Positions 1,763 to 29,429 of a DNA stretch of 29,519 nt are shown one piece after another. Under the pieces are notes generated by a model, which saw nothing but the letters and a program-made list of their open reading frames with translations, did not search any database and had not been told where the DNA came from. Source of the DNA: a virus; IMG/VR virus record IMGVR_UViG_3300022187_000015, positions 1 through 29,519 of that record; one strand, written 5' to 3'. The position numbers were made by a program, and so were the translations under genes. The stretch's first letter is position 1. Each line of letters starts with the position of its first letter.

Positions 1763-2503
1763 TTATACCCCCTTCAGTGGGACTTTCAAAACGGGGTTAA
1801 AGTCAAAAGTTCTCTTGCTTCCCTTGTCTCTTGCAATCACATCCTTGCCCCACTTGCGCTGCAAGTCGAAGAACTGCTGTTTTTCCCTGTCCATGTTACG
1901 GTAGGTAGCACATCCTCCCTCTTGTTCTGCCTGTTTGACGACGTAGTGCGCGTAATTCACTCGCATGCATCCTCCGTACCTCTGGATGTGTTGCAACGTA
2001 AGGTCGTAATCCTCCTTCAGCGGGAGCTCTTCGTCATACCTGAGCTCGCTGCTTTTGAGGTGAGCTTGAAAGGGCCCGCCGATGTACTGCAAAGTGCCGA
2101 AAGGTGTGTATTCGCGATATGCTCCCTTGTCGGGGATGCAATTCAGCCCCCAGAAGTGGTAGCCCCATTCCTGACACATGCTCGCCCAGTTCTCACAGTA
2201 TTCCGTCAGCTCATCAGGCGACAACGTATGAGCAACCTGCTCCTGCCACACCTTGATAGCCGAGCAGTCATCATCGAGGAGCACGATGCAGTCGGCATCA
2301 TCGAATAGGTTGTCGAGCATCCAATTTCTTACGCGACACAAGTTGCCCTGAGCCGAGTCTGGGCACTCGATGATTTCGTTGCCATTCTTTCTGTACTCCT
2401 CCGCCTCCGATTCACGCACGACCAGCTGTACCTGTGGGTACGCCATCTGCGTCATGCTCTTCTCTGGCCGTCGGTAACTTGGGGCGAGGAACTTAATTCG
2501 CAT
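1763..2503 (-). CDS. GT-A glycosyltransferase, possibly DNA-modifying
   Basis: A 246-residue glycosyltransferase of the GT-A fold. It opens with the beta strand IKFLAPSYRRP, then QVQLVVRESEAEEY, the RVRN motif (57-60), the metal/nucleotide-sugar binding acidic triad DDD at 77-79 (VLLDDDCS), and a catalytic-type acidic motif KEDYD at 163-167. This arrangement resembles the phage TET-associated glycosyltransferase (TAGT) group proposed to sugar-modify oxidised bases. The gene overlaps the ParB-like gene by 11 bases and precedes terS, a place where DNA could be modified just before packaging. No oxygenase, hydroxymethylase or thymidylate-synthase-like gene is visible anywhere in the circle, so the acceptor is unknown and could equally be a protein or glycan. 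Glycosyltransferase: confident; DNA as substrate: inference. Confidence 0.82.
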   Translation of the reverse strand: MRIKFLAPSYRRPEKSMTQMAYPQVQLVVRESEAEEYRKNGNEIIECPDSAQGNLCRVRNWMLDNLFDDADCIVLLDDDCSAIKVWQEQVAHTLSPDELTEYCENWASMCQEWGYHFWGLNCIPDKGAYREYTPFGTLQYIGGPFQAHLKSSELRYDEELPLKEDYDLTLQHIQRYGGCMRVNYAHYVVKQAEQEGGCATYRNMDREKQQFFDLQRKWGKDVIARDKGSKRTFDFNPVLKVPLKGV

Positions 2504-16079: not shown

Positions 16080-16742
16080 TTAGTCGTTGTAGTATTCAAA
16101 GATTGCAGAAACGCGGTCCTTGGCAGACAGCCCGCGCAGGTTGATTGGTTCACGCTGTTGGGTATGGGGGGCACGTGAAAGCCCTTCGGTTGCCGGTTGA
16201 TTGTCCAGCTCCTCCTTGATAGCAGAAAGCTCTGTTTTGTGAGCCTCAAGCTCTTGCTTGTACTCCGTGAGGGCTTCCGTCAGGGCCTCCTTCACCAGCT
16301 CGCGAACTGCATCGGCAGTCATCACCGTCTCTGGAGCCTCCTCGGCCATCTCCTCCTTGTCCTCGTCTTTCTCGGCTTCGGTAGCGTCCATAATTTCAGC
16401 AATCTTGCCGCCCTCGACGCGAGTCTTGCCGCCGTCCTCGTACTCGTACTCCCCGTCAGGAAGTGGAATCTTCTCGCCCTCGTCATTCATGACGAAAACG
16501 TCCGCACCCACGGCAAACTCACCGTCGGTGAAAATCTCCGTGCCATTGGCGAGCTTCTTGCTTGCCATAAGTTCCTCAGCTTCCGTCTCGGTTTCGAGCT
16601 CGGTAGCCTCAGGCTGTGTGGCGTCCTCCTGCTCCATTGCCTGGAGGTTGACGGAGTACTGCTCGAACAGCTGGTTTACTCGTTCTTTGAGGTTCATGTT
16701 TCTGTAACGCTTTTGTGTGGATAGTTCTCGCATGTGAGTCAT
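16080..16742 (-). CDS. Scaffold-like protein
   Basis: A 220-residue, very acidic protein with a central low-complexity stretch rich in Glu (EATELETETEAEELM, EKDEDKEEMAEEAPE) and a long helix (ELVKEALTEALTEYKQELEA) before a C-terminal peptide (PINLRGLSAKDRVSAIFEYY) that probably docks onto the capsid protein. Acidic, helical, coiled-coil proteins located between the protease and capsid genes are typical scaffolds, removed during maturation. ATG 16742 makes an ATGA overlap with the protease stop; ATG 16697 is an alternative start. No DNA-binding or enzymatic motif. Confidence 0.8.
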   Translation of the reverse strand: MTHMRELSTQKRYRNMNLKERVNQLFEQYSVNLQAMEQEDATQPEATELETETEAEELMASKKLANGTEIFTDGEFAVGADVFVMNDEGEKIPLPDGEYEYEDGGKTRVEGGKIAEIMDATEAEKDEDKEEMAEEAPETVMTADAVRELVKEALTEALTEYKQELEAHKTELSAIKEELDNQPATEGLSRAPHTQQREPINLRGLSAKDRVSAIFEYYND

Positions 16743-18097
16743 TTTTTGTCCGACTTGGGATGCCCTTTGGGCAGCAGGTCATAGTCCCCTGTGTACTTCT
16801 TGTTTTGGGGGCGTCCATTTTTGACCAGGTACAGGTAAGCATTTACGCGAGCTTGTCCCCATTGCTGGCTGCTGCTGACATTTGGACTGTGGCTTGTTTG
16901 GAATGCCCCCACCCCCCGCTGGTATACCGTGCGTAGCTGACCGATTGTGACGCCGTAGCCGAGCTTTTTCTTGTACCGCTCGTTGAACTCGTCGGCTTTC
17001 TTTTGCAACGACTTCTCTACAGCCGCTGGCACCTTCACCCCGCGGGTATTCGATGCTGCCCCTGGCTTGTTCTTGGAGCTGCCTCGCTTAGGGTTTCTGT
17101 TGGGTGTCCCTGACTTGGGAGCTTTACGGCTGGGCTTGACACCACCGCGAGGCCCAATGGTCGCCAACTCCGCTACGAGTTCATCCTCCATAGCCTGAAG
17201 CATGTCCAACTCACGCAGTTTGCCTCGCGACCAGTTTTTTGCCGCCTTGCCACCCCACAGCAGGTAGCTGATTGTTCCGCATGCTTTGGAGTCACTGGGG
17301 TCGTAATATGCCTCCGCTCGATTGAGGTAGCCCCACATACGTTTAATTGTGGTAATGCTGATGGGCTTGCCGTCTGCCAACTGTTGAGCCCGCACCTTGC
17401 CCACCTGAGTGGCACAGCGGTTGTTCACCCGCTCGTTCATCTCAATGCCTCGCTTGGCATTGTTCCGTACAGAGTCGGGGTAATCATTGAAAGATTGCAG
17501 AGCCGTCTTGTCATCCGTGATGAAGGTGTTGGCAAGCTCTTCGAGCAGGTCCTCCTGCATCTCCGTGGCCTTTTCTTTCAATGCCATGCGGTCGACAAAA
17601 TAGCCCTCGATGCTGAAGCCCTTCACCTTGCCCTCCTTCACGAAGTTTTGCCAGATAGCGTCGTTGTTGACTTTCACGGCGACCATCCACGTACCTTTCG
17701 GGTAGGTCATGCCGTACGAGTTGCTCTTGTCCTTTTCTGGGTCTTCGATGAGCCAGGACTCCACCACGCTGAGCCCCTGAAGTGGAAAATTGTGGTCGAG
17801 GGTAGTTCGTCCTTGGTTGCCCGCCATTAGGAACAGCTGCATAGCCTGTTTTACCGTCGACTTGCTGAAGTAAACGTAGTATTCCTCATCGTCACTGCGA
17901 CGAAAGATGGGCTTGTCAGGAATGAGAGCAGGACCGAGCAAGATACGTTCATCTTCATCGACCTGAGCAAAGGTCTGTTTCTGCTGTTCTGCGAAAGCCA
18001 CGAAGTCCGCTTCAATCGCGGGCTGTTCAACCAGCGAAATAGCCTCGATGCCATACACCTCGGCTTCCTCGTCAATTACAAGTTCTACAATAGTCAT
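16739..18097 (-). CDS. XkdF-type prohead protease with two extra domains
   Basis: Residues 1-185 match the XkdF-like serine protease: EAISLVEQPAIEADFVAF, ILLGPALIPDKPIFRRSDDE, H102 in TTLDHNFPL and S162 in GFSIEGYF. It processes scaffold and capsid proteins. Residues about 205-295 form a second domain (NAKRGIEMNERVNNRCATQV, ITTIKRMWGYLNRAEAYY, then a YLLWGGKAAKNW block) found with phage head proteases. A basic linker (320-355) leads to a C-terminal domain about 370-443 (YGVTIGQLRTVYQRGVGAFQ, ARVNAYLYLVKNGRP) resembling a DUF5824-like domain known from marine phages. The total of 452 residues is far longer than a protease alone. It has ATGA overlaps on both sides. Confidence 0.85.
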   Translation of the reverse strand: MTIVELVIDEEAEVYGIEAISLVEQPAIEADFVAFAEQQKQTFAQVDEDERILLGPALIPDKPIFRRSDDEEYYVYFSKSTVKQAMQLFLMAGNQGRTTLDHNFPLQGLSVVESWLIEDPEKDKSNSYGMTYPKGTWMVAVKVNNDAIWQNFVKEGKVKGFSIEGYFVDRMALKEKATEMQEDLLEELANTFITDDKTALQSFNDYPDSVRNNAKRGIEMNERVNNRCATQVGKVRAQQLADGKPISITTIKRMWGYLNRAEAYYDPSDSKACGTISYLLWGGKAAKNWSRGKLRELDMLQAMEDELVAELATIGPRGGVKPSRKAPKSGTPNRNPKRGSSKNKPGAASNTRGVKVPAAVEKSLQKKADEFNERYKKKLGYGVTIGQLRTVYQRGVGAFQTSHSPNVSSSQQWGQARVNAYLYLVKNGRPQNKKYTGDYDLLPKGHPKSDKK

Positions 18098-23178: not shown

Positions 23179-24473
23179 TTAATCGAAGTTGCTCGTTTGA
23201 CATTCAAGGTAGCACGGTACAGTCCCGTCCGCGACTCAGTTTCGGCCCGTACGCTTGTGTTATCAATCACGACAGGTACCCACCCCTCGCTCAAACGTAT
23301 GAAGACATTTTTGCTCCGTAGGGCGTGTTCCAACAGTTGCTGCTCCTCAAGGTACGGTGTCTCCATCTGTAAGGTGTAGACCTCGGTCCCCTCGACGTAG
23401 TACGGCCTCACCTCTCCACCGCTTGTGTCCAGCGTGAATGTGCTGCCGCCATATGAGCCCGTCACACGTGAGTACATCTTCCTGCTTACCTGGACGTCTT
23501 TTTGAGTCTTCAGGTTGAACCACAGGTAGTCGTAGCCTCCTCTCCAGTTTGTGAATGCCATCTGCACATGGTCATGCTTCTTGGAATAGCAGTGCTTGTA
23601 CAGATTGCACTGAGCTAAGTAATTGTTGCTTGCGTCCCGCATAATGACCTCCATGTGAGTCCACGTAACCTGGTCCAGGTCGCTCGTGAAAATCGCCTCC
23701 AGCTTCTCCCTGTTGAGCTGCACATACTGGATTTTGCGGGTGTAATTGCTGGTTGAGCTCTGTGTGCCAAGTCCGCTGCTGCTCTCGGCACTTTCCACGA
23801 CGCTGCTGTTATTCCTGAGTCTTAATCGAAGAGAGCCCAGGTCCCTTTGAGCGGTCAGCATCACGTTGTCATTGATGAATGCCAGCACGATGTGGTCATT
23901 GTCAAAGTCCCATCGGTAAGTCAAGATGTTTGTGTCTTTCTGCAGAGGCAGACGGGCAGCAAGATAGCCCCCATCAGTTACGACATTTGTGAAGTTGGAG
24001 TCCATGAGCCCTACAGGCTCAGGGTGCAAGCCCTCCGTGTCCTGACGTGCTCCAGGGATGAGCAGGAAGTTTTGGGTGATGTCGGGCGATGTCTCTCCCC
24101 CTGCGTCGGTGTACTCACCAAAGCGTATGTAAATGCGCCTTGGCCCTACGTCATCACTGTCCGCAATCAAGGTGCTTTCGAAGTTGTCCCCATCCACCAA
24201 CAAGTTGCCGTCTTGATTGAAGAGCTGATGCTCCACTAAGCCGCGTGCGGTGTCGTTGAAGTTGAAATGGAGTTTGTCCTCTGGGTTGGGAGGTAGGTAA
24301 TACTTTGCGAGCAACGTGCCACTGGCACTGTTTTCTCTTATGTAGACAACGTACCGAAAATCATCCGTGATGGTCGTGTCGGTGCTGACGCTCCAGACCG
24401 CCGTCTGGTTGGAGTACACAATCCGCTTGGTACTGTGCGTCGTGATTGGTGATGCGTCCAGAGTGATGCTCAT
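23172..24473 (-). CDS. Tail structural protein (distal tail/baseplate)
   Basis: A 433-residue beta-rich protein (YSNQTAVWSVSTDTTITDDF, LHFNFNDTARGLVEHQLFNQ, DNDHIVLAFINDNVMLTAQR, YDYLWFNLKTQKDVQVSRKM) with no enzyme motif. Length, beta content and position between the tail-completion and tail-tip genes fit a distal tail or baseplate component. It has an ATGA overlap with the upstream gene. A Ser/Asn-rich stretch at about 235-265 may be a flexible loop. Assigned by context; the exact ring it forms is unknown. Confidence 0.65.
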   Translation of the reverse strand: MSITLDASPITTHSTKRIVYSNQTAVWSVSTDTTITDDFRYVVYIRENSASGTLLAKYYLPPNPEDKLHFNFNDTARGLVEHQLFNQDGNLLVDGDNFESTLIADSDDVGPRRIYIRFGEYTDAGGETSPDITQNFLLIPGARQDTEGLHPEPVGLMDSNFTNVVTDGGYLAARLPLQKDTNILTYRWDFDNDHIVLAFINDNVMLTAQRDLGSLRLRLRNNSSVVESAESSSGLGTQSSTSNYTRKIQYVQLNREKLEAIFTSDLDQVTWTHMEVIMRDASNNYLAQCNLYKHCYSKKHDHVQMAFTNWRGGYDYLWFNLKTQKDVQVSRKMYSRVTGSYGGSTFTLDTSGGEVRPYYVEGTEVYTLQMETPYLEEQQLLEHALRSKNVFIRLSEGWVPVVIDNTSVRAETESRTGLYRATLNVKRATSIKC

Positions 24474-25057
24474 GCCTTGAGTTTTCCTGTCGATTTGCCG
24501 ACCGTGATGTTAATGCCTGTAATAATGTCCGCTTTCATAGCCTGTCGAATCTTTGCTTGGTGCTTGGGTAGAGTCATCTTCACTGCCGTCGACCAGTATT
24601 TGACCCCTGGAAGTCCTCGCCGCTTGATAGCTCGTGCCATGACGAACGCCACACCACGTAAGCCCGACTCTGTATGCTTCTTAAAACGCCCCTTGCTGTC
24701 CCTCAAAAGCACCCGCACCCCCTTTACCCTAAGCCAGTTCAAGATAACGTCTGTGGGTGGCTGCTTTTTGAACGTGAACGGGCTGCCATGACGCCGCTGT
24801 GTGCCATTCACTCCGAAGTAGACGTAGCTCTCGTATTTTTTTGCAGCTCCCTTCACCCCAAAATTGAGCGCGAAGTCCTGCCCCCGTACCGTGACGGCGT
24901 AACCAAGTGAACGCTGTAATTGTCCACTGGCTACGCCATACGTCGGGTTGTTTCCTACCTGTCTGCCGAGTTCATTCCTGGCGTTGTCCACCAGCTCCTC
25001 AGCAAACAGTTGTAGGGCCTTTTTAAGCTCCTTCGTTGCCACCTTTGCGTCGGTCAC
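24470..25057 (-). CDS. HK97 gp10-like tail-completion protein
   Basis: A 195-residue protein with the gp10-family pattern: an N-terminal helix (KELKKALQLFAEELVDNARN), the SGQLQRSLGY turn, YESYVYFGVNGTQRRHGSPF, then PPTDVILNWLRVKGVR and a long helix GVAFVMARAIKRRGLPGVKY. These proteins join tail to head-completion ring. The start is GTG 25057, since the first internal ATG would remove the family core; it overlaps the small membrane gene by 35 bases. Confident on family. Confidence 0.82.
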   Translation of the reverse strand: MTDAKVATKELKKALQLFAEELVDNARNELGRQVGNNPTYGVASGQLQRSLGYAVTVRGQDFALNFGVKGAAKKYESYVYFGVNGTQRRHGSPFTFKKQPPTDVILNWLRVKGVRVLLRDSKGRFKKHTESGLRGVAFVMARAIKRRGLPGVKYWSTAVKMTLPKHQAKIRQAMKADIITGINITVGKSTGKLKA

Positions 25058-25199: not shown

Positions 25200-25302
25200 T
25201 GTTGATTTTTTGAATGATGTTCTGTATGACGTCGAGTAGGTGAGGCACCATGCTCAGTGCGTCCTTTTCCTGCTCGGTAAGTGTAATAGGTTCTTGTGCC
25301 AT
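25192..25302 (-). CDS. Small helical protein, 36 residues
   Basis: Starts at ATG 25302 in a TGATG overlap with the fibre gene stop and ends overlapping the next small membrane gene. The product (AQEPITLTEQEKDALSMVPH, then LLDVIQNIIQKINNG) has one amphipathic helix with no membrane segment. The double overlap and codon-like frame are the evidence. Role unknown, perhaps a chaperone-like adaptor. Confidence 0.55.
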   Translation of the reverse strand: MAQEPITLTEQEKDALSMVPHLLDVIQNIIQKINNG

Positions 25303-27329
25303 CAGTTGGTAATTGTAACGGTCATGGACTCGTATTTGATAGTAGCAGACCCTGTAGCCAGAGCCGTGATTTTCAGGGTTCCAGAGTTAGCTGCTCCCGT
25401 GTCATTGTAACCTTGAGCAACAGTGCCTGTAAGCGTAGCTGTCTGCTCTGTTCCATCACCTGTAATTGTGACTGAGGTAGCGCTGCGGAAAACGCCAGTC
25501 GCCGTCGTGCTGAAAGCAACCACCACCCCCGAAGCAGCCGTGCATTTGATTCTCGCGGTGTAGGAAACGCCAGCCTGTGTGCTGACTCCACCCACGGCCA
25601 CCACATCATTGATGCTGTTCTGCTGCAGGAAGTTGCTGCCCCGTGTGGTAATGGTGGAGCTTGTTTCATCCATGCGTGGGACAAAGACGGTGTTGGAGCC
25701 CGCACTTACAGCCTGAGTCGATGTGTAACCCCTCCATTCCAGAGAGCTGGTAAGCCCCTGTGTTTTGCGCAACTCAATCTGTTCAGAGATAGCCTTGCTT
25801 GTAGCCAGCTGGAAGTCATCATCGCTGTCGTAATTCTCGTACTCGTAATTAGCGATGAATGTGCTGCCCAGGTTGTTTACTTTGGATTCAATCCGCGATG
25901 CTGGAGTGCGAGCCGAACCGCCAGGCGTGCGCCCTGCCACGCTGCGATTGACGCTGCAATCTCCTCCTGGTTCGTAGCTTGTGCCATAGATTGTGAGGAA
26001 GGCCAAAAAGTCCTCAAGTCCAATGAACCCGTCGCCATTGAAGTCCCCAGGGTTGTTATTGCCAAAGCTGACTGAGCACCCGCTGTCCGTGAGCACCTGC
26101 TGCACAGCAGCCAACAGGTCGGTGTTCTGAAAAGAGCCGTTCGTATAGTACAGCACATCACCTGCCGCGGGACTGCTCACAGTCGCGTCGCTGAGGTCAT
26201 TGAGTTCCCCAGGTATGCTTGTACTTCCCTCCAAAGCCGTACCTGCTGTAGTGCCAAAGCCTGGGAAGCTGGTCTTAGCTGTGTTCGCCGTAATAGCGTT
26301 TGCCTGAGCCGTCGTAATGGTCGTCGTGTCACCAGCCAGCGCCGTGGTCGATGTTGTGCCCAGCTGCAAGAGAGCGGTGTTGCCCTCCAACGCCGTGCCC
26401 TCCGTGGTTCCAAAGCCAGGGAATGATGTTTTAGCGGTGTTGGCTGCGATGGCAGCTGCTTGGCTTCCAACTACGTTGTTAGCATTCTGCACGAGGAGGT
26501 TGAATACTGGCACGTTAATCCACTTGCTGAGTGACGAAGCATAGTAGAGCACATCACCATTGTCGAGACCCGTCAAGGCGCCAAGGTCGGTGTCCGTCAG
26601 GTCGTCCAAAGTGCCGCCGCCTGTCTCGATGGTCACATTGCCGTTTGCATCGGGCGATACGTTGTTGACCGTTTGCACGCTGCCAGTGCCCAGGTCCAGA
26701 GTGACGATGCCACCACCTGAGTCTGTCAATGCGCCATTGGTCACCTGGATGGTCGTCACCCCTGACACGCTGGGTGAGCCATCATTCTCACGTACCGTCA
26801 GTGAGCCCGTGTCAACGGGACTGGTGAGCACACTACCTGCGGGCGTGACTCCCTCCAACGGTGGGTTGCATGCATCATAGCCGTACGGCAGGTCGATTGC
26901 GATGTCCAGGAGCACACCCACCAGCAGGTTGCTTCGGGTATCTGTAAGGGGGGTCATACGAGCACTGTTGAGCCCATAATGCAGCCCCAAGTCAAAGACC
27001 TTGTGCCCCTGCTGGATGTCCGCCAGCAAGTCCTCCGCAATCTGCTCGATGTCACTCACCGCTTGGGTCTGTACATCCTCCCGCACCCCTGCTGCGTCAT
27101 CATCCAAGGACGGGCTGCCCAAGATGTACACCTCGAATGCGTATGTCTTGTTCCCTGCATTCCCTGACACCTGGTAGTTGGCCCCAGTGTAGACCAAATG
27201 CAGGAACGGGTATTTGCGAATCTTCTCTACGTCGACCGCATCGGGAGCACCGTGTGAAAAGCCCTCCAACAGCAGGTGCTTATCCGCAAAGGATTCAAAA
27301 GCTGTGACTATGTTGTTGTAGTTGACCAT
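25302..27329 (-). CDS. Tail terminator fused to a fibre with dockerin-like loop
   Basis: A 675-residue chimera. Residues 1-157 look like a tail terminator (NNIVTAFESFADKHLLLEGF, KTYAFEVYILGSPS, REDVQTQAVSDIEQIAEDLL, LLVGVLLDIAIDLPYGYDAC). Residues about 165-420 are fibre repeats: SVQTVNNVSPDANGNVTI, LDDLTDTDLGALTGLDNGDV, DVLYY blocks at 259 and 391, and two near-identical copies of ANTAKTSFPGFGTT (296-309 and 348-361). Residues 429-440 form a dockerin/EF-hand calcium loop (ligands D429, N431, D433, D440) followed by FLAFLTIYG. Residues 460-675 are beta-rich adhesin-like sequence. A terminator is normally alone, so this joins ring assembly to a surface fibre. The fusion could reflect a missed gene boundary, but no stop or frame change is present. 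Confidence 0.8.
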   Translation of the reverse strand: MVNYNNIVTAFESFADKHLLLEGFSHGAPDAVDVEKIRKYPFLHLVYTGANYQVSGNAGNKTYAFEVYILGSPSLDDDAAGVREDVQTQAVSDIEQIAEDLLADIQQGHKVFDLGLHYGLNSARMTPLTDTRSNLLVGVLLDIAIDLPYGYDACNPPLEGVTPAGSVLTSPVDTGSLTVRENDGSPSVSGVTTIQVTNGALTDSGGGIVTLDLGTGSVQTVNNVSPDANGNVTIETGGGTLDDLTDTDLGALTGLDNGDVLYYASSLSKWINVPVFNLLVQNANNVVGSQAAAIAANTAKTSFPGFGTTEGTALEGNTALLQLGTTSTTALAGDTTTITTAQANAITANTAKTSFPGFGTTAGTALEGSTSIPGELNDLSDATVSSPAAGDVLYYTNGSFQNTDLLAAVQQVLTDSGCSVSFGNNNPGDFNGDGFIGLEDFLAFLTIYGTSYEPGGDCSVNRSVAGRTPGGSARTPASRIESKVNNLGSTFIANYEYENYDSDDDFQLATSKAISEQIELRKTQGLTSSLEWRGYTSTQAVSAGSNTVFVPRMDETSSTITTRGSNFLQQNSINDVVAVGGVSTQAGVSYTARIKCTAASGVVVAFSTTATGVFRSATSVTITGDGTEQTATLTGTVAQGYNDTGAANSGTLKITALATGSATIKYESMTVTITN

Positions 27330-27558
27330 TGTTAGCCCGTTTAATTACTTCTGCTTTGTCCTGGAGGTATGCCAAATGCCTGAAAACGACGAAGCACCCC
27401 AGCTCTGTTGCTTGATTGAATCGGAGTAAGTCTCCGTCCGTGATGGTGTCAAGAATGCCATGCCATCCATACTTGTTTAGCTGGGCTCCTTCACCACCTC
27501 CTCCGCCTCCATCGAAGACCGCTGCAAAATGAGCTCGCGTGTCTTGTTGGAAGTCCAA
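27295..27558 (-). CDS. Tail assembly chaperone, frameshifted C-terminal part
   Basis: This reading frame has no ATG; it opens at a TTG inside the T9 run and should be reached by a -1 frameshift from the preceding gene. The 87 residues hold a Gly-rich linker (FDGGGGGGEGAQ) and a compact domain (LNKYGWHGILDTITDGDLLR, ATELGCFVVFRHLAYLQDKA) of the kind found as the extension of Bacteroidota tail chaperones. The fused product would be 154 + 87 = 241 residues. The stop lies 35 bases into the next gene. Confidence 0.8.
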   Translation of the reverse strand: MDFQQDTRAHFAAVFDGGGGGGEGAQLNKYGWHGILDTITDGDLLRFNQATELGCFVVFRHLAYLQDKAEVIKRANNGQLQQHSHSF

Positions 27559-28019
27559 AAAAAAAGCATGAGCCCCGTGAAGATGTCCGCCGTGACCTCT
27601 CCAAAAATCTTGTCGTTCTCCTTGCCCGTATACCTCTCGATGTCATACCGCTCGCCCACCCTGTTCGTAATAGGTCGATAGAGCAGGGCCATGAGCTTGT
27701 GAGCATTGGGCCAGAGGTCCTGTACCAGCTCCTCCGTATCAATCCACTCGCCCAACGTGAACTCGCCCCAGTCAGGGATGATGCCGTATTCTTTTCCATC
27801 CAGCATCAGCACCCGCTCAAAACGTGACGTTTCGTTGCCCATGACATTTGCCACCTGCTTCTGTACTCGGTCATACAGGTTGTGGGGCAATTCCCTCACG
27901 GTCGAAGCGGGGACGTCAGCGAGGGCTGCTATCCTGTCCGCATCGTTATCCGCTTGCATATACGCTTGCATCTGCCTAAGCCGTAAGTCTTGGAATCTGT
28001 GGGGTAAGCGAATCTCCAT
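27477..28019 (-). CDS. Tail assembly chaperone, short form
   Basis: A 180-residue protein (IRLPHRFQDLRLRQMQAYMQ, AALADVPASTVRELPHNLYD, KEYGIIPDWGEFTLGEWID, AHKLMALLYRPITNRVGERY). The GIIPDW.xxTLGEWIDxE and LMALLYRPI signatures are characteristic of tail chaperones in Bacteroidota phages, which coat the tape measure during assembly. Frame 0 ends 26 residues after the slippery site (LMLFF). ATG 28019. It is the first gene of the late tail block, behind a hairpin pair. Confidence 0.82.
   Translation of the reverse strand: MEIRLPHRFQDLRLRQMQAYMQADNDADRIAALADVPASTVRELPHNLYDRVQKQVANVMGNETSRFERVLMLDGKEYGIIPDWGEFTLGEWIDTEELVQDLWPNAHKLMALLYRPITNRVGERYDIERYTGKENDKIFGEVTADIFTGLMLFFWTSNKTRELILQRSSMEAEEVVKEPS
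27558..27564 (-). promoter_or_regulatory. Slippery site for -1 ribosomal frameshift
   Basis: Within a run of nine T (27565-27557 on the minus strand), frame 0 reads CTT TTT TTT TGG, so a perfect T TTT TTT heptamer sits in register. Slipping one base back gives TTT then TTG GAC, which opens the 87-residue extension at 27295. Position, register and product agree with the known -1 shift of lambda-type G/GT chaperones. Confidence 0.82.
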
Positions 28020-29193: not shown

Positions 29194-29382
29194 ATGTGGA
29201 GTGACTTCATCATGGACCTGCTTTTGATGCTTCAAGCCTACGGCCTGGAGCTGACCCCTGGAAGCCAGGCCAGTGCCTTTGACTTTAACGGCAACGGCAC
29301 GATTGATATGCAAGACTTCCTGCACATGTTATCACTGCAACCCCCTCTGTCATGCTCTACGTCGCTTGGTTCATCACGCTGA
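29194..29382 (+). CDS. Dockerin-like EF-hand peptide, 62 residues
   Basis: One of the two plus-strand genes. The product begins WSDFIMDLLLMLQAYGLELT and contains a calcium loop DFNGNGTIDMQD followed by FLHML, ligand pattern D-x-N-x-N-x-x-x-D-x-x-D as in type I dockerins; the first segment looks like a partial repeat of the same fold (DFxxxLLxxLxxYG). Dockerins bind cohesin partners or stabilise surface proteins. The same motif occurs in the fibre protein. Real coding is supported by the motif and the fitting start; translation is unproven. It overlaps the following membrane peptide gene by 31 bases. Confidence 0.6.
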   Translation: MWSDFIMDLLLMLQAYGLELTPGSQASAFDFNGNGTIDMQDFLHMLSLQPPLSCSTSLGSSR

Positions 29383-29429
29383 CCTTTGTTGCCGCCGTCT
29401 TGTTTGAGTTCTGGAAGCTCATCCAATAA
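29352..29429 (+). CDS. 25-residue membrane peptide
   Basis: ATG 29352 to TAA 29429, overlapping the dockerin gene end; on the circle it ends at position 37. The product is LYVAWFITLTFVAAVLFEFW plus a short KLIQ tail: one membrane helix of about 20 residues. Such micro-proteins can act as holin-like or membrane-signalling peptides. It converges on the terL stop by 11 bases. Real gene plausible because the frame is clean and coupled to its neighbour; no experimental-type evidence in the sequence. Confidence 0.45.
   Translation: MLYVAWFITLTFVAAVLFEFWKLIQ

Follow-up and report, generated by a model that had tools for sequence, protein, structure and literature searches.

A marine phage group with a tail terminator domain fused to an exchangeable fibre suggests an arm at the phage neck

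Background

In long-tailed phages, receptor binding is usually sought at the tip of the tail. In those phages for which structures have been solved, the terminator ring is found on top of the tail tube (PMC11784142), at the end that meets the head. A gene carried by an uncultured virus (IMG/VR record IMGVR_UViG_3300022187_000015), within a stretch of 29,519 bases referred to here as the window, raises the question of whether a terminator could itself bear a fibre. An earlier note on this DNA, made from the sequence alone, described a terminator-type domain continuing into fibre repeats and a dockerin-like calcium loop, and proposed that the fibre would project from the neck and might be anchored to host proteins through that loop. 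If terminators routinely carry swappable adhesins, then for many uncultured marine phages the search of annotation pipelines for host-binding proteins is misdirected.

Organisation of the gene

The gene (25302-27329, minus strand, as are all the features described in this section) begins with an ATG codon and encodes 675 aa in a single frame without an internal stop, and the description of it as a one-frame combination of terminator-type domain, fibre repeats and exact calcium loop is confirmed. Residues 1-158 (26856-27329) are assigned to a tail terminator domain on the basis of an AlphaFold2 fold, Foldseek and VIA matches, and homologues. They are followed by a linker of the form G-V-T-P-x-G-S (residues 159-178; 26796-26855), just ahead of which standalone relatives end, and by a beta-type adaptor module (VRENDGSPSVSGVTTIQVTNG..., residues 179-235; 26625-26795) that is also present behind the linker in fused relatives, such as those on contigs L091-L093 and L097-L108 in our numbering. 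The placing of the domain boundary at around residue 157 in the earlier note was accurate, as the similarity to standalone relatives stops exactly at the motif C-N-x-P-L (residues 154-158).

Beyond the adaptor lies a fibre module matching phrog_13853 with an E value of 5e-4 (residues 236-279; 26493-26624) and then a shaft, identified by direct reading of the sequence, that includes two NTAKTSFPGFGTT repeats (residues 280-375; 26205-26492), each sitting inside a longer copy starting at residues 293 and 345. Residues 403-449 (25983-26123) comprise a putative helix, a single EF-hand loop (residues 429-440) and a second helix, recognised from the motif and a weak Pfam EF-hand similarity. A further predicted helix, modelled with moderate to low confidence and possibly forming a coiled coil (residues 503-523; 25761-25823), precedes a probable beta-sandwich knob resembling TNF/C1q-type heads (residues 525-675; 25305-25757), which is proposed from the AlphaFold2 model, its fold matches and a weak similarity, at the profile level, to fused relatives' tails.

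The terminator domain

The first 158 residues were modelled with AlphaFold2 from an alignment of 32 rows, consisting of the window's protein and 31 relatives from viral contigs, giving a structure with a pLDDT of 80.4 and a pTM of 0.78 in which the elements are ordered alpha-beta-beta-beta-alpha-beta-beta. Foldseek gave 47 PDB matches to this model at E <= 0.001; the 50 PDB matches listed were all phage or phage-like tail, neck, connector, cap or collar proteins, named terminators, or the entries 2gjv and 4acv, both of which are counted among the terminator hexamers in PMC11784142. In VIA-align, where the best 30 matches listed had Z scores from 12.5 down to 10.0, the closest were a neck chain of P74-26 (Z 12.5 over 131 residues, rmsd 2.4) and p142 of T5 (Z 12.4 over 133 residues, rmsd 2.5); the terminators of Mu (Z 11.5) and lambda (gpU, Z 11.2), and gp15 of T4 (Z 8.8), could likewise be superposed. 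The predicted sheet with its two flanking helices thus has the gpU/TrP fold typical of solved terminators.

The same domain had no match to PHROG families at E values up to 0.1 or to Pfam families at E values up to 1, and the search of a phage collection with the domain alone returned nothing at an E value of 10. The only PDB sequence match to the domain profile, synaptonemal complex protein 3, had an E value of 0.19 and was rejected as being at the level of chance. The whole 675 aa protein found no relative among phages (at E 1e-3) or viral contigs, and a scan of genome contigs with a pair of the N-terminal domains revealed no prophage carrying it. Related isolates were identified solely through the portal protein and synteny, the nearest being the Nonlabens phages P12024S and P12024L, with 34% identity over the full length of the portal.

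The gene is situated among those for neck and tail assembly proteins. Upstream is a tail assembly chaperone gene (27477-28019, minus strand; phrog_32199, E 1e-13; a weak Phage_TAC_7 match; conserved synteny), and downstream is a gene for an HK97-gp10-like tail completion or neck protein (24470-25057, minus strand; phrog_29822, E 2e-12; HK97-gp10_like, E 0.04; conserved synteny), beyond which are conserved proteins of 433 and 992 aa, the tape measure, an XkdF-type protease and the head genes. In P12024S the same slot, between homologues of the chaperone and of the HK97-gp10-like protein, is occupied by a standalone 138 aa protein, gp41. Fold, synteny and relatives together uphold the assignment of this region as terminator-type, and the structure prediction that the earlier note had called for supports its identification as a tail terminator domain.

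Both the fold and the slot beside the chaperone and HK97-gp10-like genes are shared with the terminators of lambda (gpU), T5 (p142), Mu and T4 (gp15). The difference is one of length, as the solved chains matched are approximately 120-280 aa long, whereas here there are around 520 extra residues of fibre. The additional domains of known terminators described in PMC11784142 either serve the sheath or duplicate the terminator domain. Among the predicted viral structures of BFVD, the fold heads proteins of 393-1035 aa from uncultured phages (A0A6J5N4L8, A0A6J5MQB1, A0A6J5NWP7, A0A6J5NHA8 and others), none of these bearing the name of a terminator and some being named after collagen-like or SO2946-like C-terminal domains; such fusions are thus already present, unnamed, in public data. 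A literature search confined to open-licence papers found, in the text it returned, no description of a terminator fused to a fibre.

Recurrence of the fusion in related viruses

The same fusion was sought in related phages, as the earlier note had advised, and it was found repeatedly. The terminator domain was identified on 65 further viral contigs, 53 through a two-sequence pattern and 12 through a second query, and 62 could be classified; on the remainder, either no frame was evident at the expected start (L112) or the contig was cut within the domain (L113 and L114). In 39 of the 62 the frame runs on from the domain into a long C-terminal part, in 18 the domain is followed by a separate fibre ORF, and in the last five it stops with no fibre ORF after it. 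Eight of the fused genes reach the end of their contig (L101, L103, L104, L106, L108, L110, L119 and L122), and were scored as fused because the frame reads on beyond residue 152. Standalone domains terminate at, or close to, C-N-x-P-L/I, while fused ones run straight into G-V-T-P-x-G-S or a similar linker.

It is extremely improbable that the fusion is an artefact of assembly or sequencing. The existence of split relatives lends this idea its one foothold, but this architecture is seen on contigs of many metagenomes, the junction peptides are alike across fused relatives, and purifying selection extends through the junction. The earlier note had itself envisaged that its fusion might dissolve into separate genes in relatives and a frame error here: separate genes do indeed exist in 18 contigs, but the frame error does not, as 39 contigs are fused independently of the window. 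The fusion of terminator and fibre is real.

In all 18 split contigs the ATG of the fibre gene overlaps the stop codon of the terminator gene (ATGA), such that fibres of the same kind are produced in these relatives as independent proteins whose translation is coupled to that of the terminator, and domains similar to ArabFuran-catal are common to some fused tails and split fibres. A covalent linkage is therefore not essential, and the fusion might serve only to set the ratio of expression or to deliver the fibre, which would then be cleaved, or moved to the tail tip, rather than forming a neck fibre in the virion. We consider this distinctly unlikely, given that the retention of the fusion in 39 of 62 contigs, with an exact junction, favours the link itself being used.

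A tree was constructed from 49 distinct terminator domains (29 fused, 13 split and seven alone) after merging those with identical first 150 residues, the rows including the window and four sequences from outside the set of 65 contigs (L060, L062, L064 and P12024S). At least four changes among the three states are required, against a mean of 17.7 for shuffled labels, but since near-copies would make any label cluster, no more can be concluded than that the state is heritable and has switched on several occasions. The window is placed with little certainty, being on a long branch.

Exchange and evolution of the fibre

Closely related terminators carry very different tails. The domains of contigs L087 and L091 are 95.4% identical and their tails 31%; those of L088 and L093 are 97.4% identical and their tails 29%; and the fused domain of L094 is 86% identical to that of L102, which stands alone. 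When the last 150 aa of the 32 complete fused ORFs were compared, they fell into nine groups without a blastp link at E 1e-3. In having one constant N-terminal part and C-terminal parts of several unrelated classes, the fused proteins resemble the lactococcal neck passage structure (NPS) proteins of phages 936 and TP901-1, which similarly consist of a constant anchor, a shaft and swappable C-terminal modules, and are missing in some relatives. NPS proteins have an N-terminal anchor of around 180 aa, carbohydrate-binding domains at the C-terminus and seven C-terminal classes, with weak host binding having been shown for one module (PMC6669499). Their anchor is a BppU-like domain at the portal or adaptor (PMC6669499, PMC10747895), whereas here the anchoring role would fall to the tail terminator. 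The fold matches listed included no BppU and no fibritin. As the same slot may hold a different fibre, a coupled separate fibre gene or none, the terminator appears to be a constant anchor and the fibre swappable.

Across 12 pairs of fused genes, dN/dS in the terminator domain ranged from 0.006 to 0.142. In the nine alignable tails that gave a ratio it ranged from 0.077 to 0.334, and was higher than in the terminator domain of the same pair in all nine; no ratio was available for L087/L089, which were saturated, or for L091/L092, which lacked synonymous changes, and the value of 0.485 for L088/L093 was set aside because these tails are not truly alignable. Both halves therefore behave as real protein, with the fibre tail evolving faster than the terminator, yet under purifying selection.

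These patterns bear on whether the C-terminal part could be a structural collar or decoration, stabilising the joint or acting as an anti-aggregation whisker, with no role in binding the host. The five related contigs with no fibre suggest that this part is dispensable, and precedents exist in the account of PMC10966104, according to which T4 whiskers and the neck fibres of cyanophage A-1(L) serve purposes other than receptor binding or do not detectably bind the host; the carbohydrate module of the A-1(L) fibre did not bind the host, and neck fibres need not therefore be receptors. Such a purely structural role is nevertheless unlikely, as tails have been swapped between near-identical terminators, have changed faster than the terminator in every alignable pair with a ratio, and in several cases contain lectin-type domains. 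The tail of contig L098 has an Lcl_C domain (E 7e-7, below the Pfam cut-off), and the fused tail of L100 has an ArabFuran-catal-type domain (E 5e-31), with similar domains present on the split fibres of L082 and L076.

The calcium loop

The loop D-F-N-G-D-G-F-I-G-L-E-D (residues 429-440; 26010-26045) is followed directly by F-L-A-F-L-T-I-Y-G (residues 441-449; 25983-26009). By composition, approximately 6e-7 occurrences of DFNGDG-x5-D[LF], or 0.001 of the looser DxNxDG-x5-D, would be expected in 675 residues, and so the EF-hand loop is not attributable to chance. Pfam EF-hand similarity is weak (E 0.045-0.15, with EF-hand_1 and EF-hand_6 at 0.12-0.15, both below the cut-off), and AlphaFold2 places two helices around the loop with low pLDDT.

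Docking onto cohesin-like host proteins, as the earlier note suggested, would be in keeping with the match of the loop to the dockerin/EF-hand consensus and with the appearance of a cellulosomal chain, 2y3n_B, in a PDB sequence search at E 1.4. Type I dockerins require two tandem EF-hand-like repeats, but the fusion protein contains no second repeat, and Pfam Dockerin_1 matches neither the whole protein (E up to 1) nor its C-terminal part (E up to 0.1). The loop is also inside the shaft rather than at an end, and comparable single loops are found within other phage fibre-like proteins. Anchoring of the dockerin type is accordingly very improbable, and this part of the earlier proposal is not sustained.

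A scan of viral contigs for the EF-hand pattern found at least 100 stretches, and the ORFs at the 80 listed loci that were read (81 ORFs) were a mixture: some code for large proteins, some for dockerin-like repeats, others are small ORFs, and several encode fibre-like proteins. In four of the latter (L132, L141, L184 and L134) the loop and a DLLxFLxxFG motif precede a beta-type C-terminal part, as they do in the window. Such single loops suggest an element of the shaft rigidified by calcium, and the simplest reading in the present case would be a hinge or knuckle stiffened in this way in sea water.

Apart from this loop, a six-frame scan of the window detected just one more, in a small ORF at 29281 on the plus strand. 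This divergent 62 aa ORF (29194-29382, plus strand) is a conserved EF-hand microprotein of the pattern MWSxxIMDxLLLL..YG...DFNGDGxITMYDFLEMLSQQP; it had no match in the 18 related records searched, which are mostly fragments, and was present in seven other contigs (L135, L140, L147, L156, L157, L179 and L201). Overlapping its end in another frame (29352-29429, plus strand) is a 25-residue hydrophobic peptide, MLYVAWFITLTFVAAVLFEFWKLIQ, and contig L193 has a similar arrangement, in which a membrane-type ORF comes after an EF-hand mini-ORF.

The C-terminal knob

The C-terminal 216 aa have no relatives in viral contigs or phages, and the C-terminus was modelled together with the tails of nine relatives. 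The overall confidence of the model is limited (pLDDT 57, pTM 0.50), with block means of 53-84 for residues 525-675, which are predicted to form a beta-sandwich behind a helix. The fold matches of this region, with Z scores up to 11.6, are mostly to trimeric TNF/C1q-type heads: EDA-A1 (Z 11.6), the phi812 spike (Z 10.4) and a protein of cyanophage A4 (Z 10.1) score highly, and others include the tail-needle knobs of Sf6 and HS1, the short tail fibre of A-1(L), BclA, the TNF-like lectin PLTL and the lectin BC2L-C. In this moderate-confidence model, the knob superposes as a jelly-roll on C1q and TNF heads and on phage knobs. The alignment behind it is weak, hhalign linking the window's knob to the tail family with a probability of 30%, and a TNF/C1q-like knob is therefore probable rather than proven. 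TNF/C1q-type heads are generally trimers.

Position and function of the fibre

Taken as a whole, residues 1-158 would form a ring that halts growth of the tail tube and receives the head and that, by analogy with solved relatives, is presumably hexameric. From the natural C-terminus of this ring, the Gly/Pro linker would lead through the beta adaptor and repeat shaft to the calcium-type EF-hand knuckle and the knob, which probably trimerises. As this chain starts at the ring's C-terminus, the fibres are likely to project from the head-tail junction: if the C-terminus exits outwards, each terminator subunit would display one fibre at the neck. Outward exit is not automatic, since a C-terminal His-tag on the T5 terminator led to aberrant polymerisation, the authors of that study proposing that the tag may have folded inwards, into the lumen (PMC11784142). 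Six chains bearing trimer-type knobs could be arranged as two trimeric fibres, and a hexameric ring with trimeric fibres would need some compromise of symmetry, so that the locus poses a concrete structural question.

Several known systems offer parallels. The whiskers of T4, made of fibritin, are neck-borne, a likeness to the arrangement proposed here; they differ in being a separate coiled-coil protein that is not known to be fused to a ring protein. The neck fibres of A-1(L) (gp82-gp81-gp80), described in a paper that also mentions T4 whiskers (PMC10966104), are trimeric, have a distal carbohydrate module and have been seen at the neck; they differ in being separate proteins, and the ring on which they are mounted is not a terminator but pentadecameric gp5. 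Evolved Dit and major tail proteins also join a core protein of the tail to a host-binding carbohydrate module (PMC6669499), though the core protein is a different one, positioned either along the tube or at its tip. Neck fibres bearing exchangeable adhesins are already known; the present case is set apart by the proposed use of the tail terminator as their anchor.

We therefore regard it as probable that this group of marine phages possesses a terminator with a built-in, swappable fibre projecting from the head-tail junction as accessory or main host-binding whiskers, which suggests that attachment to the host may involve the neck in addition to the tail tip. In a stronger version, towards which we are sceptical, the main variable host-recognition module would reside on the terminator ring, the six C-termini pairing as two trimeric neck whiskers, and host range would evolve through fibre swapping, splitting and deletion behind a near-frozen terminator while the tail tip remained comparatively constant. 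The occurrence of fused, split and fibre-free forms among close relatives amounts to a natural experiment testing the importance of neck fibres in adsorption.

Other features of the window

Near its end, the chaperone gene contains a run of nine T on the coding strand (27557-27565, minus strand), and reading on from there in the -1 frame (27295-27558, minus strand) yields a second conserved domain (...YGWHGILDTITDGDLL...LAYLQDK). All ten relatives checked share an XTTTTTTT slippery sequence and a similar -1 product, and the gene thus appears to contain a conserved programmed -1 frameshift. This would resemble the gpG/gpGT arrangement of lambda.

The order of genes between 12381 and 28019 (minus strand) is unusual, with the chaperone, the terminator, the 433 and 992 aa proteins and the tape measure coming before the protease, capsid and portal, and the tape measure gene directly adjoining that of the protease. 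The XkdF-type protease (16739-18097, minus strand) has a C-terminal DUF5824 domain. Elsewhere in the window, the protein encoded at 1763-2503 (minus strand) matches a phrog named beta-glucosyl-HMC-alpha-glucosyltransferase with an E value of 3e-15.
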